A stretch of DNA of 64,000 nucleotides from Herbiconiux flava (GTDB lineage Bacteria; Actinomycetota; Actinomycetes; Actinomycetales; Microbacteriaceae): the NCBI RefSeq assembly GCF_013409865.1, contig NZ_JACCBM010000001.1:3038001-3102000 (forward strand). The letters run 5' to 3'. Both the position numbers and the translations under genes were made by a program. This document shows, piece by piece, positions 16,161 to 37,945 of the stretch (position 1 is the stretch's first letter; each line of letters opens with the position of its first letter). The notes under the pieces are model-generated. The model searched no databases. It was not told where the DNA came from and was given only the letters and a program-made list of their open reading frames with translations.

Positions 16161-16190
16161 CCGGTTTGGCAATGGCCCGGCCGAAACCGG
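16161..16190. promoter_or_regulatory. dyad in the divergent gap upstream of the GAF-ANTAR pair
   Basis: CCGGTTT (16161-16167) and AAACCGG (16184-16190) form a perfect 7-bp inverted repeat with a 16-base spacer, inside a 93-base divergent gap. TACGGT seven bases before the ATG at 16214 is a possible leaderless -10. It could be a regulator site or a chance GC-rich dyad. Confidence 0.3.
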
Positions 16191-16213
16191 CCGCAGTTGA
16201 TACGGTTCTGTTC

Positions 16214-23019: not shown

Positions 23020-24021
23020 TCAGAGTACGCCCTCCGGGGACAAGGCGGCGATGGCCGCCAGGACGTCCTCGACGGACACGGCGAGGATGGCCGGGTCGGG
23101 GGTGTCGGCGAACGCGTCGCCCCGGCGCTGCGCGGCGTCGGTCAGCACGATGTGGGGGCCCGGGGGCGGACCCCAGATCTCGGGCGCCGCCGGGCCGAAC
23201 AGCACGACCGAGGGCCGGCGGTAGGCCGACGCGAGGTGGGCCGCCCCGGTGTCGGCCGAGACCACGAGCCGGGCGTGGGCGATCACGCCGGCGAACTCGG
23301 CCAGCCCCAGCTCGCCGGCCAGCACCCGGCCGGGTCCGAGCCCGGCCGCCCCCGCGACGGCGAGCGCCCGCTCCCGTTCGGCCGCGCTGCCGGTGAACAC
23401 GACGTGGTGGCCGCCCTGCTCCAGCTGACGGGCGACGGCGGCGAAGCGGTCGGCGGGCCACAGCCGGGAGCCGTAGAAGGCGCCCACGTGCACGACGGTC
23501 GGCGCCGTCGTCAGCGGATCGGCGCCGAGCCGCCGCGCATCCGGAGCCGGGGCCGCGATCTCGAGCGTGGTGTCGCCCGGGTCGGCCGGCACGCCGTACG
23601 CACCGACCAGTCGCACCCAGCGCTCGCGCTCGTTCATCTCGTCGATCCACTCGGGCGCCGGTGCCGGAGCAGCGGGCAGACCGGGCACCTGGTGCACCAT
23701 CGCCTGGCGGGCGCCGAGCGCGTCGACGATCAGGCGGCTCTCCGGCCCGCTGCCGTGCAGGTTCACCGCGACGTCGATGCGCCCCGGTGCGATCGGCAGC
23801 GGGTCGTTCAGGCCGGGGGTGGGGAGCAGCGCGTCGATCCCTCCGACGAGGTCGACGATCGGCTCGAGCCAGCCGGGCACCGCCAGCACCAGCCGGTGGC
23901 CGGGGTGCGCCCGTCGCAAGCCGTGCAACGCCGGCACGGCCACCAGCAGGTCGCCGAGCTTCAGGGCGCGGAGGGCCAGCAGCACGGGGCGGTCGTCGTC
24001 GCGGGGATCGAAGTGCAGCAT
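23020..24021 (-). CDS. family 9 glycosyltransferase (heptosyltransferase-like) A
   Basis: A 333-residue GT-B protein. VLLALRALKLGDLLVAVPALHGLRRAHP is the N-terminal GT9 pattern; VVHVGAFYGSRLWPADRFAAVARQL and VVSADTGAAHLASAYRRPSVVLFGP are the nucleotide-sugar binding motifs of ADP-heptose:LPS heptosyltransferases. Actinobacteria lack LPS, so the acceptor must be another glycan or lipid. It is divergent from the gmhB-led operon, across 152 bases, and belongs to the same predicted heptose cluster. The ATG at 24021 follows a G-rich stretch; other nearby ATGs are possible. Confidence 0.88.
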   Translation of the reverse strand: MLHFDPRDDDRPVLLALRALKLGDLLVAVPALHGLRRAHPGHRLVLAVPGWLEPIVDLVGGIDALLPTPGLNDPLPIAPGRIDVAVNLHGSGPESRLIVDALGARQAMVHQVPGLPAAPAPAPEWIDEMNERERWVRLVGAYGVPADPGDTTLEIAAPAPDARRLGADPLTTAPTVVHVGAFYGSRLWPADRFAAVARQLEQGGHHVVFTGSAAERERALAVAGAAGLGPGRVLAGELGLAEFAGVIAHARLVVSADTGAAHLASAYRRPSVVLFGPAAPEIWGPPPGPHIVLTDAAQRRGDAFADTPDPAILAVSVEDVLAAIAALSPEGVL

Positions 24022-24173
24022 GCCCCCATGCAACCCGCATGCCGCGCCGTGCGCCACCGGCAGGCGGCGGAGAACAGCGGAATGCAGCGGATTCCGGCGA
24101 GGGGCTTGACTCCGGGCAGGAGAAGAAGAGAAGACGGTGTTTAGTTCTCCGGGGAGCGGGGAACTCCTCCAGC

Positions 24174-24734
24174 ATGCAAGCCAACGCCTCCCCCTCCGCC
24201 TGGCCGGCCGCCGTGCTGTTCGACCGCGACGGCACGATCGTGGTCGACGTGCCGTACAACGGCGATCCGTCGCTGGTCGAGCCGGTCGCCGGCGCGGCGG
24301 CGGCACTGCAGCGGGTGCGCGACGCCGGGCTGGCCGTCGGAATCGTCACCAACCAGTCGGGCATCGCCCGCGGGCTGGTGAGCGCCGAGCAGGTGGCCGC
24401 CGTGAACGCCGAGGTCGAGCGGCGACTCGGCCCGATCGACGTCTGGCGGCTCTGCCCGCACGCACCGGGCGACGGATGCCCGTGCCGGAAGCCCGCACCC
24501 GGGATGGTGCTCGACGCCGCCCGCTCGCTCGGAGTGCCGCCCGCCCGCGTGGTGCTGATCGGGGACATCGGCGCCGACGTCGAGGCCGCCCGCGCGGCCG
24601 GTGCGACGGGCATCCTAGTGCCCACGTCCGTGACGAGGCCCGAGGAGATCGCGGCGGCACAGCTCGTGGCGGGCGACCTCGCCGAGGCGGTCGACCTGGC
24701 GCTCACGGCCCTCGACGATCGGGTGCCCGCGTGA
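24174..24734 (+). CDS. gmhB: HAD-IIIA phosphatase, GmhB-like (heptose-1,7-bisphosphate 7-phosphatase)
   Basis: A 186-residue phosphatase with the HAD nucleophile motif FDRDGT (D17, D19), the Thr motif VTNQSG, and the zinc loop LCPHAPGDGCPCRKPAPGM (near residues 92-112) seen in GmhB and its relatives. It should remove the 7-phosphate from heptose 1,7-bisphosphate, step 3 of ADP-heptose synthesis. It is first in a six-gene operon with 4-base overlaps. Only a weak, distant G-rich ribosome site is visible at the ATG. Histidinol phosphate phosphatase-like proteins share these motifs, but the gmhA and hldE neighbours support GmhB. Confidence 0.9.
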   Translation: MQANASPSAWPAAVLFDRDGTIVVDVPYNGDPSLVEPVAGAAAALQRVRDAGLAVGIVTNQSGIARGLVSAEQVAAVNAEVERRLGPIDVWRLCPHAPGDGCPCRKPAPGMVLDAARSLGVPPARVVLIGDIGADVEAARAAGATGILVPTSVTRPEEIAAAQLVAGDLAEAVDLALTALDDRVPA

Positions 24735-25804
24735 TCCGCCGCGCTCTGGTCGCGCGGCTCGACAACGCCGGCGACGTGCTGCTGGCCGGTCCCGCGGTGC
24801 GGGCCGTCGCCACGTCGCCCGGTGTCGACGAGGTCTGGATGCTCGTCAGCCGCCAGGGCGAGGCCGCGGCCGCCCTGCTGCCGGGAGTCGATCGCGTGCT
24901 CACCTGGGACTGCCCCTGGATCACCTCCCCGCCGCCGGACGCCACCCGGGAGCAGCTCGCTCGGCTCGACGGGCTGCTCGACGAGGCCGCAGCCGGTGCG
25001 TCGCTCGACGTGGCCGTGCTGCTGACCTCGTTCCACCAGTCGCCGCTGCCGCTCGCCCTCCAGCTGCGGCTCGCGGGGATGCCCCGCATCGTCGGCGCCT
25101 CGGTGGACTACGCCGGCGCACTCCTCGACGTGCGCCTCCGCCCTGGGGAGGACCTCGACGAGGACCAGCCCGAGCCCGAGCGCGCCCTCGCCATCGCGGC
25201 GGCGGGCGGCTTCGTGCCGCTCCCGGGAGACGACGGGCGGCTCGCGGTGCGGATCGGCGCGGAGGACCGCGCGTCGGCACAGGCTCTCGCGCCCGATGCC
25301 CCATACGTCGTGCTGCACCCGGGAGCCACAGCGTCGTCGCGGCGCTGGCCGGCGGAGCGCTACCGCGAGGCGGTGCGCCTGCTGGCCGCACGGGGGATCC
25401 GGCCCGTGGTGACGGGAGGCGCCGGGGAGCGCGAGCTCACCGCCGCCGTCGCGGGCGGCGAGGGACTCGATCTCGTCGGCCGCACCGGGCTCGGTGCCCT
25501 GGCCGCCCTGATGGAGGGCGCCGAGGCGGTCGTCACGGGCAACACCGGACCGGCGCACTTGGCGGCGGCGGTGGGCACCCCGGTGGTGAGCCTGTTCTCC
25601 CCCGTCGTGCCGGCCGTGCGCTGGGCACCCTACCGGGTCGATCACGAGCTGCTCGGCGACCAGCACGCACCCTGCCGGGGCACCCGGGCCGTCGAGTGCC
25701 CGGTGCCCGGGCATCCGTGCCTGGCATCCGTGACGGCGACGGAGGTGCTCGAGGCCCTCCAGCGCCTCGTGCCGCTCGCCGAGCGGGCGGGGGCGGCCCG
25801 ATGA
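24731..25804 (+). CDS. family 9 glycosyltransferase (heptosyltransferase-like) B
   Basis: The 357-residue GT9 enzyme begins ALVARLDNAGDVLLAGPAVRAVA and carries YVVLHPGATASSRRWPAERYR and VVTGNTGPAHLAAAVGTPVVSLFSP, the nucleotide-binding and donor motifs of heptosyltransferases. A Cys-rich C terminus (APCRG, ECPVPGHPC) is common in this family. The GTG start overlaps the gmhB stop (GTGA). It probably adds heptose to an unknown acceptor at the cytoplasmic membrane face. Confidence 0.9.
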   Translation: MIRRALVARLDNAGDVLLAGPAVRAVATSPGVDEVWMLVSRQGEAAAALLPGVDRVLTWDCPWITSPPPDATREQLARLDGLLDEAAAGASLDVAVLLTSFHQSPLPLALQLRLAGMPRIVGASVDYAGALLDVRLRPGEDLDEDQPEPERALAIAAAGGFVPLPGDDGRLAVRIGAEDRASAQALAPDAPYVVLHPGATASSRRWPAERYREAVRLLAARGIRPVVTGGAGERELTAAVAGGEGLDLVGRTGLGALAALMEGAEAVVTGNTGPAHLAAAVGTPVVSLFSPVVPAVRWAPYRVDHELLGDQHAPCRGTRAVECPVPGHPCLASVTATEVLEALQRLVPLAERAGAAR

Positions 25805-26790
25805 GGATCCTGGTGTGGCACGTGCACGGTGGCTGGATGGACTCCTTCGTGCGCGGCGGCCACGACTACCTGCTGCCGACCGGCGAACCCGAGCGGGGCG
25901 GCGGCATCGGCCGGGGCGGCCGCGACTGGCCGGCGACGGCGGTCGAGGTTCCGTTCGCGGAGCTCCGGGACGCGGAGGTCGACGCCGTCGTCCTGCAGCG
26001 GCCGGTGGAGCTAAACCACGTCGAACGGCTGCTCGGCCGACGGCCGGGCCGGGACCTGCCCGCGGTGTTCGTGGAGCACAACACCCCGAAGGGCGAGGTG
26101 CCCTCGACCGTGCATCCGCTCGCCGATCAGAGCGCCGTGCCGATCGTGCACGTCACCCACTTCAACGCCTTGATGTGGGACTCGGGCCGCGCGCCGAGTC
26201 TCGTCGTCGAGCACGGCGTGCCCGACCCCGGCCCGCTCTACACGGGCAGCCTCGACCGGATCGGCGTGGTGGTCAACGAGCCGGTGCGTCGCGCGCGGGT
26301 GACCGGCACCGACCTGCTTCCCGCGTTCGCCGCCGTGGCCCCGCTCGACGTGTACGGCATGAAGACGGATGCCCTGCCCGGCGCCCTGGGCCTCGCCGAC
26401 GGCCTCGTCACCGCCGCCGGTGACCTCCCGACCGCACTCCTGCACCCCGCTCTCGCGGAGCGCCGGCTCTACCTGCACCCGAACCGCTGGACCTCGCTCG
26501 GGCTCTCGCTGCTGGAGGCGATGCACCTCGGCATGCCGGTCGTCGCGCTCGCGGCGACCGAGGTGCCCCGGGCCGTGCCGCCCGAGGCGGGGGCCGTCTC
26601 GAGCGACGTCGCCGAGCTCGTCGCCGCCGCCCGACTGCTCGTCACCGACCCCGACGAGGCCCGGAGCCGCGGCCGGATCGCCCGGGAGTTCGCGCTCGAG
26701 CGCCACGGCCTGTCCACCTTCCTCGACCGCTGGGACGGCGTGCTCGCCGAGCTCGTGCGCGGTCGACCGACAGTAGGGAGCACCCGGTGA
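25801..26790 (+). CDS. GT-B type glycosyltransferase
   Basis: A 329-residue GT-B protein starting [40 protein letters not shown] sits in the middle, and [23 protein letters not shown] near residue 240 is the acidic EX7E-like donor motif of family 4-type enzymes. The start lies in an ATGA overlap with GT9 B, and its TGA in a GTGA overlap with the next GT. The nucleotide and acceptor cannot be read. Its place in the middle of the heptose operon suggests it extends the same glycan. Confidence 0.82.
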
Positions 26791-28034
26791 AGATCTCCAT
26801 GGTGTCCGAACACGCCAGCCCCCTCGCCACCCTCGGCGGGGTCGACGCGGGCGGCCAGAACGTGCACGTCGCGGCCCTGTCCACGGCCCTCGCCGAGCGC
26901 GGGCACGAGGTGACGGTGTACACCCGGCGCGACTCGGCGACGCTGCCCGAGCGGGTGACGCTCAGGCCGGGCGTCGAGGTCATGCACCTCGACGCCGGAC
27001 CCGCCGAGCCCGTGCCGAAGGACGAGCTGCTGCCGCTGATGGCCGACTTCGGCGCGCGGCTCGCGGAGCACTGGGAACCGGGCCCGCCGGACATCGTGCA
27101 CAGCCACTTCTGGATGTCGGGGCTCGCCGCCCTCGACGCCGCCGGCCGCGACGGGATCGGGGTGCCGGTGGTGCACACCTTCCACGCCCTCGGCACCGTG
27201 AAGAAGCGGCACCAGGGGCGCGACGACACGAGCCCGCCCGAGCGCACGGTGCTCGAGCCGATGGTGGGGCGCGGCGCCGACCGCATCGTCGCGACCTGCT
27301 CCGACGAGGCCTTCGAGCTGAAGGCCATGGGCGTGCCCGCCGGACGCATCTCGGTGGTGCCGTGCGGGGTCGACGTCGAGCTGTTCAGGCCCGACGGGGA
27401 GGTCGCCCCGCGGGGCGCTCGCCGGCGCATCATGACGGTCGGCCGGCTCGTGCCCCGGAAGGGCGTGGGCTCGACGATCTCGGCGCTCGCCCGGCTCGTG
27501 GCCGAGGGCCGCGACGACGTCGAGCTCGTGATCGTCGGCGGCTCGACCGGGCCGGACGCGGTGCTCGAGGATCCCGACGTGCGGCGGCTCCGTGCCCACG
27601 CCGAGCGCCTCGGCGTGCTCGACCGGGTGACCTTCCACGGGCAGCTCCGCCAGGCCGAGCTGCCCGCGATGATGCGCTCGGCCGACGTCGTCGTGTGCGC
27701 GCCCTGGTACGAGCCCTTCGGCATCGTGCCGCTGGAGACGATGGCGTCGGGCGTGCCGCTGGTCGCCGCCGCGGTCGGCGGCCTGACCGACAGCGTCGTC
27801 GACGGCGTCACCGGCCTGCACGTGCCCCCGCGGGACGACCGGGCGATCGCCTCGGCGGTCGGCTCGATCCTCGACGACCCGGCTCTCGCCGCCGCGCTGG
27901 GAGCCGCCGGGCGCCGGCGCACCGAGCGGCGCTACGCCTGGTCGAGGGTCGCCGCCGAGACCGAACGCGCCTACCGGCAGGCCGCCCAGGCCCGCCCATC
28001 CGAGAGAGCACGCCGAGGGAGCGTCACGCTATGA
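26787..28034 (+). CDS. family 4 glycosyltransferase
   Basis: The 415-residue GT-B retaining enzyme begins [31 protein letters not shown], close to sucrose-synthase/MshA-type GT4. [13 protein letters not shown] lies in the N-terminal domain; [11 protein letters not shown] and [27 protein letters not shown] supply the nucleotide- and donor-binding motifs (EPFGI...E is the EX7E). It should transfer a sugar from an activated donor. Both ends overlap neighbours (GTGA in, ATGA out). MshA-type activity is less likely because the gene sits in the heptose operon and no mycothiol genes are near. Confidence 0.88.
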
Positions 28035-28705
28035 CGACGAGCAGCAGCACGACGAGCAGCAGCACCACGAGCACCACGACAACCTCGACGCGGCGCGCAC
28101 CCGCCTCGGTGCCCCTCGGCACCGCCGACCGGGCGCTGCTGGGGCTGCACCTGCGCGACCACGCCCGGGCGATGGCCGAGCTCGAGGCGCAGGTGCCCGT
28201 GATCGAGCGCTGGGGCCGTGAACTCGCCAACCGCCTCGGCCGTGGCCAGCGACTGCTGGTCGCGGGCAACGGCGGATCGGCGGCGGAGGCCCAGCACCTG
28301 TCCTCCGAGATCGTCGGGCGCTTCGACGGCGAGCGGGCGCCCTTCTCGGCGCTGGCCCTGAACGCCGAGAGCTCGAGCGTCACCGCCATCGGCAACGACT
28401 ACGGCTTCGAGCAGGTCTTCGCCCGGCAGGTCACGGCCCACGCCCGATCGGGCGACGTGGTGGTGCTGCTGTCCACCAGCGGGCGGAGCCCCAACCTCGT
28501 GGCGGCGGCCCGCGCGGGAGTGCGAGCGGGCGCCGCGACCTGGGCGCTCACGGGCGAGGGGCCGAACCCGCTCACCCGGGCGAGCGCGGAGTCGCTCGCC
28601 CTTCCGGGCACGGCGGCGAGCGTGCAGGAGGCGCAGCTCGTGGCGATCCACCTGCTCTGCCGGGTGTTCGACCACGCCATCGCCACGGCCGGGCGGTCGT
28701 CGTGA
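28031..28705 (+). CDS. gmhA: SIS-domain phosphoheptose isomerase, GmhA-like
   Basis: 224 residues; the core [22 protein letters not shown] carries the sugar-phosphate binding Ser/Gly/His and the Glu of GmhA, followed by [11 protein letters not shown] and [16 protein letters not shown] with the likely catalytic His. It should convert sedoheptulose 7-phosphate to D-glycero-D-manno-heptose 7-phosphate, the first step. The first about 20 residues are a Ser/Thr repeat tail coded by AGC/ACG/ACC repeats that most GmhA proteins lack; a later start is possible, but the ATG is fixed by the ATGA overlap with the GT4 gene. Confidence 0.9.
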
Positions 28706-30171
28706 TCGTCACCGTGGTGGGCGACGTGCTGCTCGACGTCGACCTCGACGGCCGCACCACGAAGCTGAGCCCGGATGCCCCGGTGCCCGTCGTCGGCGTC
28801 ACCCACCGGCGGGCGCGAGCGGGCGGCGCCGGCCTCGTCGCGGCCATGCTCGCGGGCGACGGCGACGGCGGCGGCGGCGGCGGACGCGGCGACGGCGGCG
28901 TTCGCGGCTACGGCAGTGGCGACGGCGGCGGTCACAGGGGCGGCCTCCGGGTCGAGCTCGTCACGGCGCTCGGGGACGACGAGGGCGCCGGGGAGCTGCG
29001 GTCGCTGCTCGAGGAGCGGGCGGGCATCCGTCTCGTCGCCGGCCCCTCCGGCGCCCCGACGCCGGTGAAGACCCGGGTGCGCACCGACGGGCACGCGGTC
29101 GCGCGGCTCGACGAGGGCTGCGATCCCCCGCCGGCCCCCGTCGTGACCGAGCAGATGCTCTCCGCCGTGGCCGCCGCCGAGGTGATCGTCGTGGCCGACT
29201 ACGGCCGCGGTCTCACGGCCGTGCCGGCCCTCAGAGAAGCACTCGCCCGACGGGCCGCCGTCGTGCCCGTGATCTGGGACCCGCACCCGGCCGGCACCGA
29301 GCCGGTTCCGGGCACCGCCGTCGTCACGCCCAATCTGAGCGAGGCGCTCGCCCTGTCGGGAGCGTCGGGTCGCGGCATCGCCGGAGCAGCCCGCGCGGCC
29401 TCGGCGCTGGCTGGGAGCTGGGGCGCTCAGACGGTCGTCGTCACGCTCGGCCACGAGGGCGCCCTGCTGCACCGGGCGGGGTCGGGCCCGCTGGTCGTGC
29501 CGGCACCGCGGGTCGAGACCCTCGATCCGTGCGGTGCGGGCGACCGCTTCGCCGCCACGCTGGCCCGGAGCCTCGGCGAGCGACTCCCCCTCCCCGACGC
29601 GGTGCAGCGGGCCATCGACGAGGCGGCCGCCTTCCTGGGCGCCGGCGGCGTGGCCGGGCTCCGGGCGGCCACCGATCCCGAGGAGCGGGCCGAGTCGGCG
29701 GTGCTCGTCGGCGGGGGCCGTGAGGCCGTCGCCGTGGCCGCCCGGGTCAGGGCCGCGGGCGGCACCGTCGTGGCGACGGGCGGCTGCTTCGACCTTCTGC
29801 ACGCGGGGCACGCCCGCACTCTGGCGGCGGCACGCGCCCTCGGTGACTGCCTGATCGTGTGTCTCAACTCCGACGACTCGGTGCGCCGGCTGAAGGGCGC
29901 CGACCGGCCGATCATGAGCCAGGACGACCGCGTGGCGCTGCTGTCCGCGCTCGAGTGCGTCGACGCCGTGCTCGTCTTCGACGAGGACACCCCGGAGCAG
30001 GCGATCCGCCGGCTCGAGCCCGAGCTCTGGGTGAAGGGCGGCGACTACGTCGCAGCGGCCCTGCCCGAGACGGCGGTGCTCGCGGAGTGGGGCGGGCAGA
30101 CCGTCACCGTGCCCTACCACCCCGGCCGCTCGACCACCCGGCTGGCCTCCGCGCTCGCGAAGGTCGGCTGA
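28702..30171 (+). CDS. hldE: HldE-like heptose 7-phosphate kinase / heptose 1-phosphate adenylyltransferase A
   Basis: The 489-residue bifunctional protein has a PfkB/ribokinase domain (VVGDVLLDVDLDG at the start, VVADYGRGL, and the anion-hole/base motif GAGDRF near residue 280) and a nucleotidyltransferase domain (ATGGCFDLLHAGHARTL, HAGH near residue 365; VRRLKGADRP; WVKGGDYVA). It should make ADP-heptose in two steps. A Gly/Asp-rich run (about residues 52-80) replaces or follows the usual GGAANVA segment. It is last in the operon and has a 4-base overlap with gmhA. A second HldE lies at 33841. Confidence 0.88.
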   Translation: MIVTVVGDVLLDVDLDGRTTKLSPDAPVPVVGVTHRRARAGGAGLVAAMLAGDGDGGGGGGRGDGGVRGYGSGDGGGHRGGLRVELVTALGDDEGAGELRSLLEERAGIRLVAGPSGAPTPVKTRVRTDGHAVARLDEGCDPPPAPVVTEQMLSAVAAAEVIVVADYGRGLTAVPALREALARRAAVVPVIWDPHPAGTEPVPGTAVVTPNLSEALALSGASGRGIAGAARAASALAGSWGAQTVVVTLGHEGALLHRAGSGPLVVPAPRVETLDPCGAGDRFAATLARSLGERLPLPDAVQRAIDEAAAFLGAGGVAGLRAATDPEERAESAVLVGGGREAVAVAARVRAAGGTVVATGGCFDLLHAGHARTLAAARALGDCLIVCLNSDDSVRRLKGADRPIMSQDDRVALLSALECVDAVLVFDEDTPEQAIRRLEPELWVKGGDYVAAALPETAVLAEWGGQTVTVPYHPGRSTTRLASALAKVG

Positions 30172-30257
30172 CGCGCCTCCCGCTTCCTCTTCCACTCTCC
30201 CCGCACCACTCTCTCCGCTCCACCGGCTGCAGCCGCAGCACCGACGAAAGGAACACC

Positions 30258-30956
30258 TTGACCGAACGACGACCACTCGGACGCGTGCTGATCACCGGAG
30301 GGGCCTCCGGCCTCGGGGCGGCCGTCGCCGACGCGGTGGCCGCCGCGGGCGGCACCCCCGTCGTGCTCGACCTCGACGTGAGCCGGGTCGAGGGCCACGA
30401 GGCGGTGCAGGCCGACGTGTCGGACACGCGGGCCGTCGAGCAGACCGTCCGCGAGCTCGTCGAGCGCCTCGGCCCGCTCGACGCCGTCGTGACGGCGGCC
30501 GGGATCGACCGCTGCGGCCGGCTGCTCGACGTCGACGCCGCGGAGTGGGAGCGGGTGATCGGGGTGAACCTCCTCGGCACGGTCGCCGTGGTGCGCGCCG
30601 CCCTGCCCTCGCTCACCGAGCGGCACGGCCGGGTCGTCACGGTGGCGTCCTCGCTCGCCCTGCGCGCGGTCAGCGACGCCACCGCCTACTGCGCCTCGAA
30701 GTTCGGCGTGCTCGGGTTCAGCCGCGCCCTCGCCGCCGAGACCCGGGGCGAGATCGGCGTCACCACGCTCATCCCGGCCGGCATGCAGACCCGCTTCTTC
30801 GACGACCGGTCCGACCAGTACCGACCGGGCGCCGACGCGAAGCTGAACGACCCGGCGAACGTTGCGAACGCGGTGCTGTTCGCCCTGCAGCAGCCGGAGG
30901 GCTGCGAGGTGCGCGAGCTCGTGATCGCGCACGAGGAGGAGCCGTCCTGGCCGTGA
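30258..30956 (+). CDS. classical SDR family oxidoreductase
   Basis: A 232-residue SDR with TGGASGLGAAV, TAAGID (NAG region), and YCASKFGVLGFSRALAAE (Tyr-x3-Lys). A dehydrogenase role on a sugar or its derivative is plausible from context. It lacks the GGAGFIG and long fold of the HldD heptose 6-epimerase, so it is not HldD. The start is a TTG preceded by GAAAGGAACACC, 86 bases after the hldE-A stop. Its stop is followed by a strong hairpin. Confidence 0.85.
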   Translation: MTERRPLGRVLITGGASGLGAAVADAVAAAGGTPVVLDLDVSRVEGHEAVQADVSDTRAVEQTVRELVERLGPLDAVVTAAGIDRCGRLLDVDAAEWERVIGVNLLGTVAVVRAALPSLTERHGRVVTVASSLALRAVSDATAYCASKFGVLGFSRALAAETRGEIGVTTLIPAGMQTRFFDDRSDQYRPGADAKLNDPANVANAVLFALQQPEGCEVRELVIAHEEEPSWP

Positions 30957-30992
30957 GGATCCGGCCCGTCGGGCCGTGGCGGGCAGCGGGGC

Positions 30993-31019
30993 GGGGCCGG
31001 CCGTGGTGCGGCCGGCCCC
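30993..31019. terminator. bidirectional terminator-like hairpin
   Basis: GGGGCCGGCC and GGCCGGCCCC form a perfect 10-bp inverted repeat with a 7-base loop, between the convergent stops of the SDR (30956) and GT9 C (31024). There is no T-tract, as is usual in high-GC actinobacteria. Confidence 0.7.
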
Positions 31020-31023
31020 GTGC

Positions 31024-32190
31024 TCAGCGGCGGCGACCGTGCGCCAGCACCTGGCGCACGTCGTCGAAGACCGGCCCGACCTCGACCTCGGCGACGAACG
31101 AGTCGTCGTGCTCGCAGCGCTCGGCCGTCCAGCCCGGCTGCCGCGAGTCCTGCCCGCAGACGGGGCAGGCCGTCGTCCACGAGAGATGCACGCGGTGCTC
31201 CCGCCGGGTCAGCGGCCCGCCGTTGATCAGGTTGCCCACCCAGTAGACCGACACGGTCGGCGTTCCGACGGCCTGGGCGAGGTGCCGCGGTCCGCTGTCG
31301 TTGCCGACCAGCACGTCGGCCGACGCCAGCACCCCGACGAGCTCGGGCAGGGTCAGGGCTCCGGCTAGAGAGACGAGTCGGCCGCGCATCCGCTCGCCCC
31401 CGGCCAGGGCCACGATGCGCTCGGCCGTCGGCACGTCGCTCGCGTCGCCCACCACCACGACCCGGTGGTCGTCGTTGAGCGCGCGCCGGGCGAGCTCGGC
31501 GAACGACTCGGCGGGCCAGCGCCGGCGCGGGTCGGTGGCTCCCGGATGCACGACCACGACCCCTCGGGACGCTCCGGTGCCCCGGCCCCCGCCGAGCAGC
31601 TCCTCGCCGCGCCGCCGCTCCTCGTCGAGCACCCGGACGACCGGTTCCATCGTCACCGGCGCGGCGCCCGCCTGGGCCACCGTCTCGAGCCACCGCACCA
31701 CCTCGTGCTGGTAGTAGAGGTACGGGACGGTGCGCTCCAGCGGCGCGGCGTCACCGGTCATGGTGCCGACCGTGTGCCGGGCCCCGAGGGCCAACAGGAA
31801 GGGGTTGGAGTAGCGGCCGCCGCCGTGCAGCTGCACCGCCAGGTCGAAGCCCTCGGCGCGCATCCGGACGTGGAACCGGGCGGTCGCGAGCGGATCGGCG
31901 GCGTCGTCGGCACCGCGCACCCCGCGGGCCGCGGGCAGCAGCTCGACCCCGTGGACCGGGCCCGGGCGCCCCTCGAGCAGCGCCCCGTGCAGCGGGGTGC
32001 CGAGCAGGGTGATGCGGGCGTCGGGATAGGCGGCGGCGAGCGCCTCGACGGCGGGCATCGCGAACAGCAGGTCACCGAGGCCGCCACCTCGCAGCACGGC
32101 GATGCGGTGGACGCCGTCGAAGCGATCGCGGAGCGGCGCCAGCACAGGGCCCGGTGTCTGTCCCGGGAGGTCGGTCAGGGTCATCGTCAT
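31024..32190 (-). CDS. family 9 glycosyltransferase (heptosyltransferase-like) C
   Basis: A 388-residue GT9 protein: IAVLRGGGLGDLLFAMPAVEALAAAYPDARI at the N terminus, VVVVHPGATDPRRRWPAESFAELA in the middle, VLVGNDSGPRHLAQAVGTPTVSVYW as the donor motif. The C terminus has CPVCGQDS plus a third Cys (AERCEHDD), possibly a metal site. It faces the ALDH/HldE-B/GT2 run across 208 bases, and a shared promoter region may serve both. The ATG at 32190 follows GAGAGGACGCCGG. Confidence 0.88.
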   Translation of the reverse strand: MTMTLTDLPGQTPGPVLAPLRDRFDGVHRIAVLRGGGLGDLLFAMPAVEALAAAYPDARITLLGTPLHGALLEGRPGPVHGVELLPAARGVRGADDAADPLATARFHVRMRAEGFDLAVQLHGGGRYSNPFLLALGARHTVGTMTGDAAPLERTVPYLYYQHEVVRWLETVAQAGAAPVTMEPVVRVLDEERRRGEELLGGGRGTGASRGVVVVHPGATDPRRRWPAESFAELARRALNDDHRVVVVGDASDVPTAERIVALAGGERMRGRLVSLAGALTLPELVGVLASADVLVGNDSGPRHLAQAVGTPTVSVYWVGNLINGGPLTRREHRVHLSWTTACPVCGQDSRQPGWTAERCEHDDSFVAEVEVGPVFDDVRQVLAHGRRR

Positions 32191-32398
32191 CCGGCGTCCT
32201 CGTCTCTCGTGCTGTTCCTCTTGAGTGCCCCGACGAGCCGCGCGGGAAACATCGGATGCCGCACCGGGTGTGTAAGCGGCGGCGCCGGTGGGTACAGCAC
32301 GGGTGACCGCGCCGCAGGCATGGCACCGCGCGGCACCGAGACGGCTCCGCGCGGCATCAGCCCTGCGGCACCGGCCCCCGCGGCACCGAGGAGGACGC

Positions 32399-33844
32399 AT
32401 GCAGTTCGACAGCGACACCGTCACCCCGCTCACGACGCCGGCCACGGTGCCAGCCGCCGGATCGGCTGCCGCCGGATCAGCCGCAGCCGGCGGCGAGGTC
32501 GCCATCACCGACCCGCGCACCGGTGCCCTCGTCGGCTGGGTCGACTTCACCACCGACGAGGAGCTGACGGCCGCCGTCGACCGGGTGGCGGCCGCCCTGC
32601 CGGGCTGGCGCCGGATCTCCCCCGCCGACCGGGGGCGCACGCTGGCCAACGCCGCGGAACTGCTCGCCGAGAGCGAGCTCGAGCTGGCCGAACTGAACCA
32701 CCGCGAGACGGGCCGCCCGCTCGAGCAGGCGCTCGAGGGCGTGCGAGCCGGGGTGTCGACGCTCGTGCAGTACGCCGAGCTCGGCCCGCTGCACACCGGC
32801 CGCACCCTGCGCGGCGGATCGGGCGCCATCGACTACACGGTGCCCGAGCCCCGGGGCGTCGTCGCGGTGCTCACCCCGTGGAACGATCCGGTGGCGGTCG
32901 CCGTCGGCCTGATCGGCGCCGCACTGGTGACCGGCAACACCGTGGTGCACAAGCCGAGCGAGCGGTGCCCGCACCTCGGCAGCCGGCTCGGGGAGGTGCT
33001 GGCCTCGGCGTTCCCCCGCGACGTGCTGGTGTCGGTGTCGGGCGACGGCTCGACCGGGGCCCGGCTGATCGCGCATCCGGCCGTCTCGACCGTGGCCCAC
33101 GTGGGATCGAGCGCCACCGGGGAGCGGATCGCCCGGGCCGCCGCCCTGACCGGCGCCCACGTCGTGCGGGAGAACGGCGGCAACGACGCCCTGATCGTCG
33201 ACGAGGGCGTCGACCCGCGCTGGGCCGCCGAGCGGGCCGCCATCGCCGCCTTCACGAACACCGGCCAGCTCTGCACCGCCGTGGAGCGCATCTACGTGCA
33301 CGAGGCCGTCGCCGAGACGTTCGTGACAGCACTGGTCGAGCGGGCGGGCGAACTGAACCGCTCGGGCGCGCTCGGCCCCCTGGTCGACGAGCGGATGCGG
33401 CAGGCCGTGCACGAGCAGGTCGTCGACGCCGTGCAGACCGGTGCGACGGCCCTGGTGGGCGGCGAGGTGCCGGCCGGCCCCGGCTCGTTCTACCCGGCCA
33501 CCGTGCTGACGGGCTGCCGCCCCGGCATGACGGTGATGCAGGAGGAGACCTTCGGGCCGGTGGCCCCGGTTCAGATCGTCCGGTCCTTCGCCGAGGGCCT
33601 GCGGCTCGCCGACGACGACCGTTACGGACTCTCGGCCGTGGTGCTGACGCCGTCGATGGAGCACGCGCAGCAGGCGGCCGAGCAGCTCACCGTCGGCACG
33701 GTCAAGGTCAACGACGTGTTCGGCGGCGCCCCCGGAGGCTCCGCCGAGCCGCGCAAGGCGAGCGGCAGCGGCTTCGGCTACGGCCCCGGACTGCTCGACG
33801 AGCTCACCCTGACGAAGGTCGTGCACATCGGGACGCCGCGATGA
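32399..33844 (+). CDS. aldehyde dehydrogenase family protein
   Basis: The 481-residue enzyme has the ALDH motifs in order: VLTPWNDPVAVAVG, the NAD-binding segment with HVGSSATGERI, the general-base Glu in RENGGND, the nucleophile Cys in NTGQLCTAVER (near residue 293) and QEETFGPVAPV. The family oxidises aldehydes to acids with NAD(P). An Ala/Gly/Ser-rich N terminus precedes the core. It is first in a run with HldE-B and a GT2, with ATGA overlaps, so it may oxidise a sugar aldehyde or protect against one. The substrate is not evident. Confidence 0.9.
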   Translation: MQFDSDTVTPLTTPATVPAAGSAAAGSAAAGGEVAITDPRTGALVGWVDFTTDEELTAAVDRVAAALPGWRRISPADRGRTLANAAELLAESELELAELNHRETGRPLEQALEGVRAGVSTLVQYAELGPLHTGRTLRGGSGAIDYTVPEPRGVVAVLTPWNDPVAVAVGLIGAALVTGNTVVHKPSERCPHLGSRLGEVLASAFPRDVLVSVSGDGSTGARLIAHPAVSTVAHVGSSATGERIARAAALTGAHVVRENGGNDALIVDEGVDPRWAAERAAIAAFTNTGQLCTAVERIYVHEAVAETFVTALVERAGELNRSGALGPLVDERMRQAVHEQVVDAVQTGATALVGGEVPAGPGSFYPATVLTGCRPGMTVMQEETFGPVAPVQIVRSFAEGLRLADDDRYGLSAVVLTPSMEHAQQAAEQLTVGTVKVNDVFGGAPGGSAEPRKASGSGFGYGPGLLDELTLTKVVHIGTPR

Positions 33845-35445
33845 CGGCCGCGGCCGAGCGCGGGGCGCGGGTCGGGGCTGGAGTCGGGGCCGGGGCTGGA
33901 GTCGGGCACGGAGTCGGGCCCGGGCTCGCCCTCGCCGAGCTGCCGGCCCTCATCCGGGCTCGCGCGCCGCGGGTGACGGTGGTGGGCGAGGTCATCCTCG
34001 ACCGGTGGTGGCGCGGCCCCGCCCGGCGGATGAGCCGTGAGGCCCCCGTGCCCGTGGTCGACGTCGACGAGACCCGCTCCTGCCCGGGTGGGGCGGCGAA
34101 CACCGCCGTCAACCTCGCGGCCCTCGGTGCCCGGGTGCGGCTGGTGACCGTGCTGGGCGACGACGAGGCGGGGCGGGAGCTCGCACTCCTTCTGCAGCAG
34201 GCGGGTGTCGACACGAGCGGACTGATCGAGCATCCGGGCGCCACCACCACGACGAAGACCCGGGTGGTCGGCAGCGACCAGATCCTCGTGCGGAGCGACC
34301 GGCACGCCCCGCTGCCGACGCCCGAGGTTCTCGAGCGGTTCGTGGCGGCCGTGCGGGCGGCGACGGATGCGCGCTCCGGCGCCGAGGCCGAGATCGTCTG
34401 CGACTACGGAACAGGCCTCCTCGGCGACCGCGTGCGCTCGGCCCTCGTCGGGCGGGACAGCCGGCCCGCGCTCACGGTCGTGGATGCCCATGACATCGCG
34501 GCCTGGGCCGGTCTCGGCGCCGACGTCGTCACCCCGAACGCCGCGGAGGCCGTGCGCGCCCTGGCGGCAGCGGGACGGCGGCCGGAGTCGGCCGAGCAGC
34601 TGCGCGCCCTCGGCGACCCCGACTCCGACCGGCTGGAGGCGGCGACCGCGCTGGCCGCGGAGCTCTTCGCCGCCTCCGGCGCCGGGGCGGTCGTCACGAC
34701 CCTCGACCGCGACGGCGCCGTGCTGCTCCAGCCCGGCGCGCCCGTGCACCGCACGACCGCCCGGCCGAGCCTCGAGCAGCAGGCCTCCGGTGCCGGCGAC
34801 ACCTTCGCGGCGGCCCTCACCCTGGCGGTCGTCTGCGGCGCACCGCTCGCCCTGGCCACCGACCTCGCCCAGGCGGCCGCGGACATCGTGGTGCAGCAGT
34901 ACGGCACCTCGGTCTGCGACTCCCAAGAGCTCGAGCGCTCGGTCGCCCGCAGCTCGCCCGAGCTGCTGGACGCGCGCGGTCTCGTGCGGGCACTGGCGGC
35001 CGATCGGGCCGCCGGGCGGCGCATCGTCTTCACCAACGGCTGCTTCGACGTGCTGCACCGGGGGCACACCAGCTACCTGCGTCAGGCCGCCCAGCGCGGC
35101 GACGTGCTCGTCGTCGCGCTGAACGACGACGACTCGGTGCGCCGGCTGAAGGGCGAGGGCCGACCGGTCAATCCGCTCGCCGACCGGGCGGCCGTGCTCG
35201 CCGCGCTCGGCAGCGTCGACCACGTCGTCGCCTTCTCGGAGGACACCCCGGCGGCGCTGCTCGAGGCCGTGCATCCCGACGTCTACGCCAAGGGCGGCGA
35301 CTACACCCCCGAGATGCTCGAGGAGGCCGCAATCGTGCGGGCCTACGGCGGCCAGGTGGTGATGCTCGACTACGTTCCCGAGCACTCCACGACGGCCCTG
35401 GTCGACCGCATCCGCACCGGCACCGGCCCGGCGGTGCCCTCGTGA
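33841..35445 (+). CDS. hldE: HldE-like heptose 7-phosphate kinase / heptose 1-phosphate adenylyltransferase B
   Basis: The 534-residue bifunctional enzyme keeps the standard motifs: VVGEVILDRWWRGPARRMSREAPVPVVDVD, GGAANTAVNLAALG, GAGDTF near residue 320, then the nucleotidyltransferase TNGCFDVLHRGHTSYL, VRRLKGEGRPV and YAKGGDYTPEM. It is closer to proteobacterial HldE than copy A, whose GGAAN segment is altered. An Ala/Gly/Val low-complexity stretch forms the first 30 residues. The ATG overlaps the ALDH stop. Two full HldE copies in one cluster are unusual. Confidence 0.9.
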   Translation: MTAAAERGARVGAGVGAGAGVGHGVGPGLALAELPALIRARAPRVTVVGEVILDRWWRGPARRMSREAPVPVVDVDETRSCPGGAANTAVNLAALGARVRLVTVLGDDEAGRELALLLQQAGVDTSGLIEHPGATTTTKTRVVGSDQILVRSDRHAPLPTPEVLERFVAAVRAATDARSGAEAEIVCDYGTGLLGDRVRSALVGRDSRPALTVVDAHDIAAWAGLGADVVTPNAAEAVRALAAAGRRPESAEQLRALGDPDSDRLEAATALAAELFAASGAGAVVTTLDRDGAVLLQPGAPVHRTTARPSLEQQASGAGDTFAAALTLAVVCGAPLALATDLAQAAADIVVQQYGTSVCDSQELERSVARSSPELLDARGLVRALAADRAAGRRIVFTNGCFDVLHRGHTSYLRQAAQRGDVLVVALNDDDSVRRLKGEGRPVNPLADRAAVLAALGSVDHVVAFSEDTPAALLEAVHPDVYAKGGDYTPEMLEEAAIVRAYGGQVVMLDYVPEHSTTALVDRIRTGTGPAVPS

Positions 35446-36323
35446 GCGGCGGCAGCCGCCGGGGCTCGGCGCGCTGGGGCCGGCCGGCGGAACCGCCCGC
35501 CCCCGAGATCGACGTGCTCATCCCGACGGTCGGCCGCGTGGCCGAGCTCGCGGTGACCCTCGCCGGGCTCGCCGCCCAGGACGACCCGCCGTTCGGCGTG
35601 GTGGTCAGCGACCAGTCCGACGACTTCAGCTCCGCGCGGGCGCCGGCCGTGCAGGCGATGGTGCGGGTGCTCGCCGCGCAGGGACGCCCGGTGCGGCTCG
35701 AGCACCACGTCCCCCGGCGCGGCATGGCGGAGCAGCGGCAGTTCCTCCTCGACGCCGCCCGGGCGCCGGCCGTCCTCTTCCTCGACGACGACGTCTGGCT
35801 CGAGCCCGGCCAGCTGGCGCGACTGCACGGGGCGCTTTGGGCGAGCGGTGCCGGGTTCGTCGGTGCGGCACCCCAGGGCCTGTCGTACCTGGCGGATGCG
35901 CGGCCGCACGAGCGGGCCTCGTTCGAGCCGTGGCGGGGGGCGGTGCATCCGGAGACCATGCGGCGCGGGGCCGTGGGCTTCGACCGCCTCTCGCTGCACA
36001 ACGCGGCGAACCTCGCCCACCTGGCCGCCGACCTGGATCTGGACGACGAGGACGTCGTGCTCTACCGGATCGCCTGGCTGGGCGGCTGCGTGCTCTACGA
36101 CACCGCCCGGCTGCGGGAGGCGGGGGGCTTCGACTTCTGGCGCGACGCCCCGCCGGTGCACTCCGGCGAGGACGTCGCGGCGGAGTGGCGGGTGATGGAG
36201 CGCTGGGGCGGGGCGGGCGTGCTGCCGTCGGGCGCCGTGCACCTCGAGGCGCCGACGACCATCCCGCACCGGCCGGTCGACCTGTTCGACGTGGTCTTCG
36301 CGCCCGCCGATCCCGAGGGATGA
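35442..36323 (+). CDS. family 2 glycosyltransferase
   Basis: A 293-residue GT-A enzyme with IDVLIPTVGRVAELAVTLAGLAAQDD, VVVSDQSDDFSS, the metal motif LFLDDDVWLEPGQL and an acceptor-side GEDVAAEWRVMERWGGAG. It likely transfers a sugar in the heptose-linked glycan. GTGA overlap with HldE-B sets the GTG start. Its stop TGA overlaps the first ATG of the 17-bp repeat array downstream, continuing the coupling. Confidence 0.86.
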   Translation: MSGGSRRGSARWGRPAEPPAPEIDVLIPTVGRVAELAVTLAGLAAQDDPPFGVVVSDQSDDFSSARAPAVQAMVRVLAAQGRPVRLEHHVPRRGMAEQRQFLLDAARAPAVLFLDDDVWLEPGQLARLHGALWASGAGFVGAAPQGLSYLADARPHERASFEPWRGAVHPETMRRGAVGFDRLSLHNAANLAHLAADLDLDDEDVVLYRIAWLGGCVLYDTARLREAGGFDFWRDAPPVHSGEDVAAEWRVMERWGGAGVLPSGAVHLEAPTTIPHRPVDLFDVVFAPADPEG

Positions 36324-36399
36324 CCGACCCCGTGGGATGACAGACCCCGAGAGATGACAGACCCAGAGAGATGACAGACCCCGAGAGATGACAGAACAG
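36320..36399 (+). repeat. 17-bp tandem repeats coding chained micro-ORFs
   Basis: Four copies of a 17-bp unit (36320-36336, 36337-36353, 36354-36370, 36371-36387) and a partial fifth. Each starts with ATG and runs seven codons including the stop (MTDPVG in the first, MTDPER in the next three); each TGA overlaps the next ATG as ATGA. The first overlaps the stop of the GT2 gene. The fifth ATG at 36388 is in frame with the DUF2795 gene. Confidence 0.8.
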
Positions 36400-36417
36400 A
36401 TGAGAGAAGGAGACACC

Positions 36418-36612
36418 ATGTCCGACACCCCCAACCCGATCCAGGTGCAGAAGCACCTCGGCGGCCTCGACTACCCCGCCTCGAAGGACGACATCGTGGC
36501 GAAGGCCGAGCAGTCCGGAGCCGACGACACCGTGCTCGAGGCGCTGCGCGGGCTGCCCGACCGGGAGTACGACGCGCCGACCGCGGTGAGCGAGGCGCTG
36601 TCGGGCTCGTAG
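36418..36612 (+). CDS. DUF2795 domain protein
   Basis: A 64-residue protein (MSDTPNPIQVQKHLGGLDYPASKDDIVAKAEQS...) matching the DUF2795 pattern: a short helix-turn-helix-like fold with a conserved QKHLGGLDYPASKDD segment and a DREYDAP-type end. The ATG at 36418 follows GAGAAGGAGACACC; the frame opens ten codons earlier in the micro-ORF repeats. The function of the family is unknown; it is often found in stress-related settings in actinobacteria. A second TAG lies in frame 15 bases after the stop. Confidence 0.88.
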   Translation: MSDTPNPIQVQKHLGGLDYPASKDDIVAKAEQSGADDTVLEALRGLPDREYDAPTAVSEALSGS

Positions 36613-36627
36613 CCGGCGGGCTCTTAG
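36603..36627. repeat. near-repeat over the DUF2795 stop codon
   Basis: GGGCTCGTAG (36603-36612) and GGGCTCTTAG (36618-36627) differ at one base and are 15 bases apart. This places a second, in-frame TAG after the true stop. Confidence 0.5.
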
Positions 36628-36689
36628 AGCAGTGGGGAGAAGGAGTCAAGGGTGTTCTCGGGCCCACGGTGCGGCCGTAGACCGAGTTC

Positions 36690-37508
36690 ATGACACGACT
36701 CCGACTCTCCCCGGCTCCGGCCTCGCCGACCCTCGACGCGCCGACCCTCGACGCGCCGGCCGTCGAGCAGCTGGTCCTCGGCCATCTCGCGCTGGCCCAG
36801 GCCGTCGCCCGCCGGTACTTCCGGCCGAGCGCCGGAGCGAACCAGAACGAGGACCTGCTGCAGGTCGCCTACGTCGGTCTGGTGAAGGCGGCGCAGCGTT
36901 TCGACCCGGAGCGAGGCGAGAACTTCGCCTCGTTCGCCGTGCCCACCGTCGCGGGCGAGATCAAGCGGCACCTGCGCGACAACGGCTGGATCATCCGGCC
37001 GCCGCGCCGCATCCAGGAGCTGCACGGGCGCGTGCGGGAGGCGGTGCCGCGGCTGACCCAGCGGCTCGGCCGGGCCCCGGGGCCCGCCGAGCTCGCCCAG
37101 GAGCTCGACTGCGGCGTCGACGAGGTGCTCGAAGCGCTGGCGTCCAGCACGACCCTGTTCCCGGCGTCGCTCGACCGCGCGGTGGGCGACGACGAGGGCG
37201 TGCGGCTCTCCGACGTCATCCCCTCCGCAGGCGACGAGATCGGCCACGCCGAGACGGCCGCCACGATCGCGTACGCCTGCCGGGAGCTCCCGGAGCAGCA
37301 GCGGCGGATCATCTACCTGCGCTTCTTCGAGGACCTGACCCAGCAGGAGATCGCCTCCGAGCTGGGTGTCACGCAGATGCAGGTGTCGCGGCTGCTCGCC
37401 CGCGCGCTGGACGGACTGCGACAGCGGATCGCCCGCGGACCGTCGGTGCGCTGGCGGGCGGCGGGACGCGCATCCGCTCATCTCGCCCGCACCCGTCTGG
37501 TCGCGTGA
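36690..37508 (+). CDS. SigB/SigF-type RNA polymerase sigma factor
   Basis: A 272-residue sigma-70 family protein. Region 2: NEDLLQVAYVGLVKAAQRFDPERGENFASFAVPTVAGEIKRHLRD; region 3 follows with LTQRLGRAPGPAELAQELDCGVDEVLE; region 4: LPEQQRRIIYLRFFEDLTQQEIASELGVTQMQVSRLLARALDGLR. The order and the GEIKRHLRD motif place it with stress-type SigB/SigF factors. No anti-sigma factor gene is adjacent. TAGACC six bases before the ATG may be a leaderless -10. Confidence 0.93.
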   Translation: MTRLRLSPAPASPTLDAPTLDAPAVEQLVLGHLALAQAVARRYFRPSAGANQNEDLLQVAYVGLVKAAQRFDPERGENFASFAVPTVAGEIKRHLRDNGWIIRPPRRIQELHGRVREAVPRLTQRLGRAPGPAELAQELDCGVDEVLEALASSTTLFPASLDRAVGDDEGVRLSDVIPSAGDEIGHAETAATIAYACRELPEQQRRIIYLRFFEDLTQQEIASELGVTQMQVSRLLARALDGLRQRIARGPSVRWRAAGRASAHLARTRLVA

Positions 37509-37578
37509 TCAGGAGTTCCACCCGCTTGCAGAATGCCCGGGACCAGAGGAGAGTGGACAGCCAGGGAGGTTGCCGGGC

Positions 37579-37908
37579 ATGGGAAAGATCGTGTACGACT
37601 CGACCTTCACGGTCGACTTCGAAGACCGGGTGCTGGCCCACCTCCAGCTCGTCATCGGTGCGAAGCTGCGCCGCGGCGAGGCGTTCTTCTTCTCATGGAA
37701 GGACGACCCGAGCAACGGCGACGGCCGCACCGTGATCTGGTTGCACCCCCACATCCCGCTGACGTTCAAGTTCTACGGCGGGCGCCAGCCGGCCGTCAAC
37801 CGGGCCTGGGTCGAGGCACTGATGGTCACCGCCAACTCGCCCCAGGGGCTGCAGCTCGTCGGAGAGCCCCACGACCCGGGCGTGCCGGGCGATCACCTGC
37901 ACGACTGA
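37579..37908 (+). CDS. DUF7882 family small protein
   Basis: The 109-residue protein begins MGKIVYDSTFTVDFEDRVLAHLQLVIGAKLRRGEAFFFSWKDD, a Microbacteriaceae family often mislabelled as ATP-dependent DNA ligase. The conserved parts are the ILLxHLQxVIGAKLRRGE core, the WKDD turn and GRxPAVNRAWVEAL. No catalytic motif is visible and no function is known to me. AGGGAGGTTGCCGGGC precedes the ATG. A frameshifted relative lies at 46162-46448. Confidence 0.88.
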   Translation: MGKIVYDSTFTVDFEDRVLAHLQLVIGAKLRRGEAFFFSWKDDPSNGDGRTVIWLHPHIPLTFKFYGGRQPAVNRAWVEALMVTANSPQGLQLVGEPHDPGVPGDHLHD

Positions 37909-37945
37909 GGGCGGGGCGGCTGCTCCGGCCTGAGCGTCAGGCGCG

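Follow-up and report, generated by a model that had tools for sequence, protein, structure and literature searches.

The closest described relative of the locus studied here is the cwg operon of Streptomyces coelicolor (SCO6179-6190), to which published annotations assign a predicted cell wall glycan synthesis, and which is given there as a vancomycin-induced target of sigma-E linked to cell envelope stress. One published gene list has cwgD as a dehydratase, cwgE and cwgG as transferases, cwgH as a phosphoheptose isomerase, cwgI as a bifunctional synthase/transferase and cwgJ as a transferase (PMC5839063), and cwgE is elsewhere named a putative heptosyl transferase (PMC5882110). We analyzed a stretch of 64,000 nucleotides from Herbiconiux flava (the window; contig NZ_JACCBM010000001.1, positions 3,038,001 to 3,102,000) that carries a cluster of heptose-nucleotide and glycosyltransferase genes next to a sigma factor gene. 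The cluster is an enlarged variant of the known cwg-type kind, and the sigma factor pairing is the part that a specialist would not expect. On balance we think it probable, though by no means certain, that this is an enlarged actinobacterial heptose glycan cluster with its own stress-type sigma factor, induced by stress and probably acting on the cell envelope.

An initial annotation had read from this DNA GmhA, GmhB, two HldE-type enzymes, three GT9 enzymes, a GT-B, a GT4 and a GT2; all lie where it had placed them, within positions 23020-36323, and the ATGA/GTGA linkage that it described corresponds to 4-base overlaps at seven gene junctions. It had omitted an SDR oxidoreductase (about 30258-30956), an aldehyde dehydrogenase (ALDH; 32399-33844), a DUF2795 protein (36388-36612) and a sigma factor (36690-37508). 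The sigma factor and a promoter-like site, likewise missed, are the most informative of the new features. In window positions, the features are as follows.

23020..24021, - strand: GT9a, heptosyltransferase-like (Pfam Glyco_transf_9, 90 bits; ATG start)
24139..24164, + strand: SigB/SigF-type promoter-like site GTTTAG-N14-GGGAAC, beginning 35 nt before the gmhB ATG
24174..24734, + strand: GmhB, predicted heptose-1,7-bisphosphate 7-phosphatase, beta type by best model (NF006506)
24731..25804, + strand: GT9b, heptosyltransferase-like (Asn at the WaaC D261 position)
25801..26790, + strand: GTB, divergent GT-B glycosyltransferase used as cluster marker (invariant RWTSLG)
26787..28034, + strand: GT4 glycosyltransferase, MshA being the nearest model (261 bits, far below the cut-off of 462.5)
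28031..28705, + strand: GmhA, predicted sedoheptulose 7-phosphate isomerase (model match and conserved residues)
28702..30171, + strand: HldE1, predicted heptose 7-phosphate kinase/heptose 1-phosphate nucleotidyltransferase (YHPGRSTT near the end)
30258..30956, + strand: classical SDR oxidoreductase (start uncertain, TTG at 30258 or GTG at 30285)
31024..32190, - strand: GT9c, heptosyltransferase-like, belonging to the extended form (Pfam match)
32399..33844, + strand: ALDH, belonging to the extended form (family match)
33841..35445, + strand: HldE2, second predicted kinase/nucleotidyltransferase (outscores HldE1 on the HldE model)
35442..36323, + strand: GT2 glycosyltransferase (in 22 of the best 80 named loci)
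36388..36612, + strand: DUF2795 small protein, a recurrent neighbor (in 11 of the best 80 named loci)
36690..37508, + strand: SigB/SigF/SigG-type sigma factor (TIGR02980, 226 bits), co-occurring with the cluster

The extended form present in the window is thus the core plus GT9c, ALDH, the second HldE and GT2. Its likeness to cwg lies in the core order phosphatase, GT9, GTB, GT4, GmhA, HldE and GT9, as judged from the published cwg annotations and from a Streptomyces ruber locus (L128) that reads GmhB, GT9b, GTB, GT4, GmhA, HldE1 and GT9a, with an epimerase and a carbamoyltransferase upstream. By this comparison the cwgD "dehydratase" would correspond to GmhB. We propose as defining set a contiguous gmhB-GT9-GTB-GT4-gmhA-hldE run with a further GT9; the window contains it, its GT9a being divergent and upstream. 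Because the cwg annotations and this one named Streptomyces share its order, we take the window cluster to be an enlarged homologue of cwg. The initial annotation had spoken of an undescribed heptose-bearing wall glycan or glycolipid; the heptose gene set lends partial support to such a predicted product. "Undescribed" goes too far, since the core order matches the S. coelicolor operon. A search of the open-access PMC literature returned no report of the cwg product or of heptose in an actinobacterial wall. The window differs in adding the SDR, GT9c, ALDH, a second HldE and the SigB/SigF-type site, whereas cwg is under sigma-E; a simple pattern scan of the interval from GT9a to gmhB gave no sigma-E-like site for the window, and one in 1 of 61 divergent regions of relatives.

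All steps to ADP-heptose had been claimed for this locus, and a predicted isomerase, kinase, phosphatase and nucleotidyltransferase are indeed present with their catalytic residues, at full-length scores below the equivalog cut-offs. The best model for GmhA is phosphoheptose isomerase (143 bits; NCBI equivalog cut-off 276) and that for GmhB is the beta-heptose-bisphosphate phosphatase NF006506 (120 bits, cut-off 178; the alpha type gives 50 bits). On the HldE model, with a cut-off of 521, HldE1 reaches 271 bits and HldE2 364 bits; for the nucleotidyltransferase domain HldE2 exceeds the cut-off (193.7 against 181.5 bits) and HldE1 falls just short of it (180.2). Missing catalytic residues were among the findings that the initial annotation had named as evidence against itself. 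In sequence alignments, rather than structural ones, the key residues, which have catalytic roles, are intact in GmhA, GmhB, HldE and GT9. Those matching E. coli GmhA H61, E65, Q172 and H180 are kept in 18 of 18 rows (16 relatives, the window and E. coli), and D11 and D13 of GmhB in 17 of 17, with the zinc ligands kept in 16 of 17 and one relative deviating at three of them. The GAGD kinase motif is found in both window HldE proteins and in all HldE1 relatives counted, and is absent from one of 70 HldE2 rows. The nucleotidyltransferase signature is visible by alignment in both proteins; a narrow pattern missed HldE1, which has Gly at the first place.

HldE1 and HldE2 form separate clades (91 and 69 sequences, support 0.85 and 0.98) in a tree rooted with E. 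coli HldE. At the position of E. coli GGAANVA, HldE1 reads GGAGLVA. With the cross-kingdom nucleoside diphosphate heptose enzymes (Tang et al. 2024) it shares the didomain kinase/nucleotidyltransferase and the Arg that is the hallmark of STTR5, which commentaries on that work tie, as the residue before STT, to the use of CTP and UTP by heptose nucleotidyltransferases. Unlike them, it is linked to a sigma factor and to a cluster with several glycosyltransferases, and its motif opens with Tyr rather than Phe or Leu (YHPGRSTT against (F/L)XXGRSTT). Among relatives of HldE1, Arg precedes STT, STS or SST in 89 of 90, many having Ala for Gly; in HldE2 the residue before STT is His in 35 of 69, Arg in 22 and another residue, or part of an unclear motif, in 12. 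Structure-database matches of HldE2 were 5x9q, a putative HldC-type cytidylyltransferase, and 4e84, a heptose 7-phosphate kinase. The HldE2 gene is joined to that of ALDH by an ATGA overlap. The kinase domain of HldE1 holds a Gly/Asp-rich insert of about 28 residues (window 28858-28945), many relatives being about 30 residues shorter; replication slippage is a possible origin.

The Gram-negative ADP-heptose and lipopolysaccharide (LPS) core pathway (GmhA, HldE, GmhB, HldD, WaaC/F) has in common with the window the four-step chemistry and the GT9 family. In contrast, the Herbiconiux genome has no HldD above cut-off, no LpxC or lipid A acceptor, and two HldE types. The HldD model gave seven matches in the genome, all below cut-off (the best 99 against 275 bits), and LpxC gave none, so that neither the epimerase nor the lipid A synthesis of an LPS core pathway is recognizable. 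As there is no recognizable HldD, the sugar would stay in the D,D form, and we infer from the gene set that the cluster may produce ADP-D,D-heptose.

The three GT9 genes of the window are the sole GT9 matches in the genome, and all score over the Pfam cut-off. The Asp equivalent to WaaC D13 is present in all three. In alignments of the window with at most 25 sampled relatives per GT9 type, this catalytic Asp occurs in 25 of 26 rows of GT9b and likewise of GT9c, with one gap each. GT9a keeps equivalents of both WaaC D13 and D261; in GT9b an Asn replaces D261 in 26 of 26 rows. In the window, as in many Micrococcales loci, the gene for GT9a runs divergently to gmhB; in other loci it lies 3' of hldE. 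Two or three heptoses would be transferred by these glycosyltransferases.

A search for the same gene order elsewhere, as had been suggested, showed dozens of genomes with this gene content and order, and the cluster is therefore no chance assembly. The GTB marker is present in 98 of 394 sampled Actinomycetes genomes and in 46 of 138 genera. The named loci examined are the best 80 of at least 586 GTB-marker matches and are therefore biased toward close relatives. They contain GmhA, GmhB and HldE1 in 75 cases each, SDR in 72, GT9a in 61, HldE2 in 59, GT9c in 55, ALDH in 44 (43 on recount) and GT2 in 22, some loci stopping at contig ends and the SDR and ALDH tallies including weak matches. The recurrent core in Actinomycetes is gmhB-GT9-GTB-GT4-gmhA-hldE, usually with an SDR and a GT9, and the genera among the best 80 include Arthrobacter, Pseudarthrobacter, Sinomonas, Curtobacterium, Clavibacter, Rathayibacter, Agromyces, Amnibacterium, Planobispora, Amycolatopsis and Streptomyces. 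Twenty loci fetched from the 98 marker genomes (19 in other families) have HldE in 18 and GmhA in 16 within 20 kb, two (L156 and L162) having GTB alone or little else. GTB was found in 16 of the 20 loci fetched first, in both core-only and extended settings.

The second HldE is more restricted. An HldE2-type match above 300 bits was seen in 13 of 98 relatives, of which only part of the first-look candidates were scored; 12 of the 13 have a second HldE on the same contig and one (G023) has none. In one otherwise complete genome (G098) the locus (L046) has GT2, HldE2, GT9c and GTB each frame-split, through decay or sequencing errors; its HldE2 was counted all the same. Within Herbiconiux, the GTB marker occurs in 2 of 16 genomes and an HldE2-type match in 1 of the 15 others (G009), whose locus is identical over 16,573 bases to that of Herbiconiux sp. 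nzgw90 (L034 and L072). There, the DUF2795-GT2-sigma block is found at the GT9a end of the cluster and not, as in the window, after HldE2, which amounts to a block rearrangement within the genus. ALDH (49-64% identity) stands near core clusters in which HldE2 was not seen (L049, L051, L052, L150, L160, L161 and L163) and is therefore a recurrent partner in its own right; an oxidized heptose from its activity is possible. Another genome (G013) has one GT9 match and lacks the cluster marker.

The promoter-like site of the window agrees in sequence and position with the SigB/SigF-type promoter shape, the consensus being that of Bacillus and mycobacteria: GTTTAA-N12-14-GGG(A/T)A(A/T) for B. subtilis SigB (PMC8346170) and GTTT-N14-19-GGGTA for mycobacterial SigF (PMC4694148), as quoted in those sources. 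It is a putative promoter, and its position would imply a near-leaderless start of the gmhB transcript. Among the best 80 named loci, 75 have gmhB, and in 47 of these the pattern precedes it on the coding strand, at a modal distance of 35 nt; its frequency in the remainder of the loci predicts 0.6. In an overlapping set of 63 loci the pattern was seen in 46, against 1.4 for shuffled regions, and the reversed motif occurred in 2 of 75. Upstream of other cluster genes the motif was found before GT9b in 2 of 77 loci, GT9c in 12 of 55, HldE2 in 1 of 59 and the rest in none. The whole genome holds two strict sites; with 8 sites against 9 for the control, the relaxed motif shows no enrichment. The second strict site (contig position 1384566), some 190 bp before a solute-binding-protein-like gene, is probably a chance match; sigma-70 consensus sites (none found) and terminators (one found) were no more frequent than in shuffles. 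Repeats of the GAAGAAG/CTTCTTC type and GTTCCCC..GGGGAAC-like dyads, seen by eye, overlap the promoter-like site (window 24100-24170, and several relatives) and could be an operator.

The sigma factor scores 226.3 bits on TIGR02980 (cut-off 234.35), which is both the top match of the genome to that model and the protein's own best NCBIfam match; the next sigma factors, full-length and weaker, reach 133 and 130 bits. Of the 75 named loci with gmhB, 49 also have the sigma gene; in every one of these 49 it is no more than 3.1 kb from gmhB, and in 48 it runs in the same direction. Across these 75 loci, 43 have motif and sigma gene, 4 the motif only, 6 the sigma gene only and 22 neither (p = 7e-10). 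In 60 genomes of the family, counting sigma matches of at least 169 bits (the next best is 71), 9 have sigma factor and GTB marker, 3 the marker only, 1 the sigma factor only and 47 neither (p = 1.4e-7). Two of the marker-only genomes, G030 (L040) and G045 (L044), also lack the motif; the third, G035, tallied as marker only, has neither a GT9 nor a strong HldE match. The sigma factor and the cluster seem to be inherited together. With such weak next-best sigma matches, two strict sites in the genome and no enrichment of the relaxed motif, the sigma factor seems to serve almost solely the gmhB operon, provided that it reads the motif. In subfamily and promoter shape it resembles the SigB/SigF general stress regulons of Bacillus, Mycobacterium and Streptomyces, from which it differs in that its regulon in this genome looks like about one operon.

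In our preferred mechanism the linked sigma factor would drive transcription of the gmhB operon from the SigB/SigF-type promoter, so that the glycan would be made under stress. D,D-heptose would be retained, GT9a, GT9b and GT9c with GTB, GT4 and GT2 would assemble a heptose-containing oligosaccharide, and this would probably be placed on an envelope acceptor. Several observations weigh against this proposal. GmhA, GmhB and the full-length HldE proteins score under the NCBI equivalog cut-offs, the sigma factor is slightly under that of its subfamily, and the donor sugar of GT9 enzymes is not readable from sequence, which leaves ADP-heptose use putative. The motif is found 5' of the sigma gene itself in 0 of 50 loci and before GT9c in just 12 of 55, two core-only loci of other families (L050 and L053) have a sigma match and no motif, and an anti-sigma gene was not noticed next to that of the window sigma factor, ATPase domains of anti-sigma type being encoded elsewhere in the genome. 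The co-occurrence statistics ignore phylogeny; for sigma factor and marker in the family, one row per genus gives a p of 6e-6, which is not a full correction for descent. Wall sugars reported for some Herbiconiux species are glucose, or glucose, rhamnose and ribose (PMC10011130); heptose is not among them, the cluster status of those strains being unchecked and 14 of 16 genus genomes lacking the marker. Finally, the recurrent neighbors scanned showed no dedicated glycan flippase, polymerase, ABC exporter or ligase and no lipid-linked first enzyme; for this we clustered the neighbors of the 80 loci, viewed the 34 largest families and scanned twenty unlabeled recurrent ones with Pfam.

As no dedicated exporter or ligase recurs among those neighbors, the product could instead be a soluble cytoplasmic heptose oligosaccharide, stress-protective in the manner of a compatible solute, with no envelope glycan. 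The SigB-type promoter-like site would suit this, as would the nearest model of GT4, MshA, which glycosylates a soluble acceptor. Six glycosyltransferases are many for a solute, however, housekeeping flippases could serve export, and cwg is tied in published work to envelope stress and vancomycin; we consider a soluble product rather unlikely. A target other than a glycan, with the transferases heptosylating surface proteins, is very doubtful: E. coli does use heptose nucleotides for protein glycosylation (PMC11461863, as summarized there), and an LPXTG wall-anchor protein lies near the cluster in 7 loci, but those listed are Curtobacterium, so that this neighbor, limited to one lineage, may reflect plain synteny, and GT9 is an LPS-type family. 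Heptose-nucleotide enzymes are described as widespread, septacidin being one use in Streptomyces, and ADP-heptose feeds septacidin in Streptomyces fimbriatus. A specialized metabolite of this type, with no envelope function, seems least plausible here, since nucleoside, peptide and polyketide synthesis genes were not seen among the recurrent neighbors scanned, and a marker in 46 of 138 sampled genera is broad for such a product.

A question that touches the chemistry is whether both HldE proteins activate heptose. One of them may have a changed substrate, HldE2 with ALDH (or else HldE1) activating another sugar phosphate and a single ADP-heptose route remaining; we hold this to be a serious possibility, if not the expected outcome. 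The two separate clades, the GGAGLVA of HldE1 with its nearly constant Arg before the STT-like motif, and the overlap of HldE2 with ALDH all point that way, whereas GAGD and the nucleotidyltransferase signature are kept in both proteins and HldE2 resembles a solved heptose kinase and a putative cytidylyltransferase. A more elaborate version of the stress-induced envelope glycan, which we offer as an improbable speculation, would have a mobile sigma-plus-glycan module, with a regulon of about one operon, in Microbacteriaceae and Micrococcaceae, in which a promiscuous HldE1 also makes CDP- or UDP-heptose, HldE2 makes ADP-heptose, and SDR and ALDH oxidize the heptose to give an acidic envelope glycan installed under stress.

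Heptose is best known from Gram-negative surfaces, and here a bacterium without an outer membrane carries a heptose gene set. If the preferred reading is true, heptose glycans would be a common, chemically unresolved trait of Actinomycetes, switched by stress in some, and many Gram-positive soil and plant bacteria would produce ADP-heptose, a known ALPK1 agonist; the long-predicted cwg glycan would gain tractable relatives. Since one sigma factor is paired with one operon, the question lends itself to direct testing.

Recurrent neighbors of the 80 loci include an epimerase (24 loci), a BrkB family protein (11), MFS proteins in two groups (10 and 8), a GDSL lipase (9), an LPXTG-anchored protein (7) and a FUSC-like protein (7), together with a LysR regulator and HAD, NUDIX, DUF3618, holin-X and SRPBCC proteins; seven of the twenty families scanned have no Pfam family. 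The simple gene caller missed real genes, calling GmhA in 40 loci against 75 by tblastn. The MFS groups may be exporters but follow single lineages. In Curtobacterium (the L102 group) the LPXTG-anchored protein is a repeat protein, found with the GDSL lipase and the MFS protein of 10 loci near the cluster, possibly through synteny. Five open reading frames scanned in insertions (L035, L038, L043 and L039) encode an ABC permease, a solute-binding protein, an MFS protein, a GT4 and a LytR protein. The last, a LytR-CpsA-Psr protein (L039:8387-9676, - strand), is encoded within an insertion in the G054 cluster, a single case that we did not use as evidence; proteins of this family attach glycopolymers to peptidoglycan. 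In the window, positions 36388-38566 bring together the DUF2795 protein, the sigma factor, an SRPBCC (Polyketide_cyc) protein and a protein of 138 residues that matched no Pfam family. Several other loci, mostly of the Arthrobacter type, have SRPBCC, DUF3618 and holin-X proteins close to the cluster. The DUF2795, SRPBCC, DUF3618 and holin-X neighbors may be stress genes, which in itself proves nothing. Further upstream in the window, at 16166-17640, two adjoining proteins resemble, by eye, GAF-ANTAR RNA-binding antiterminators.

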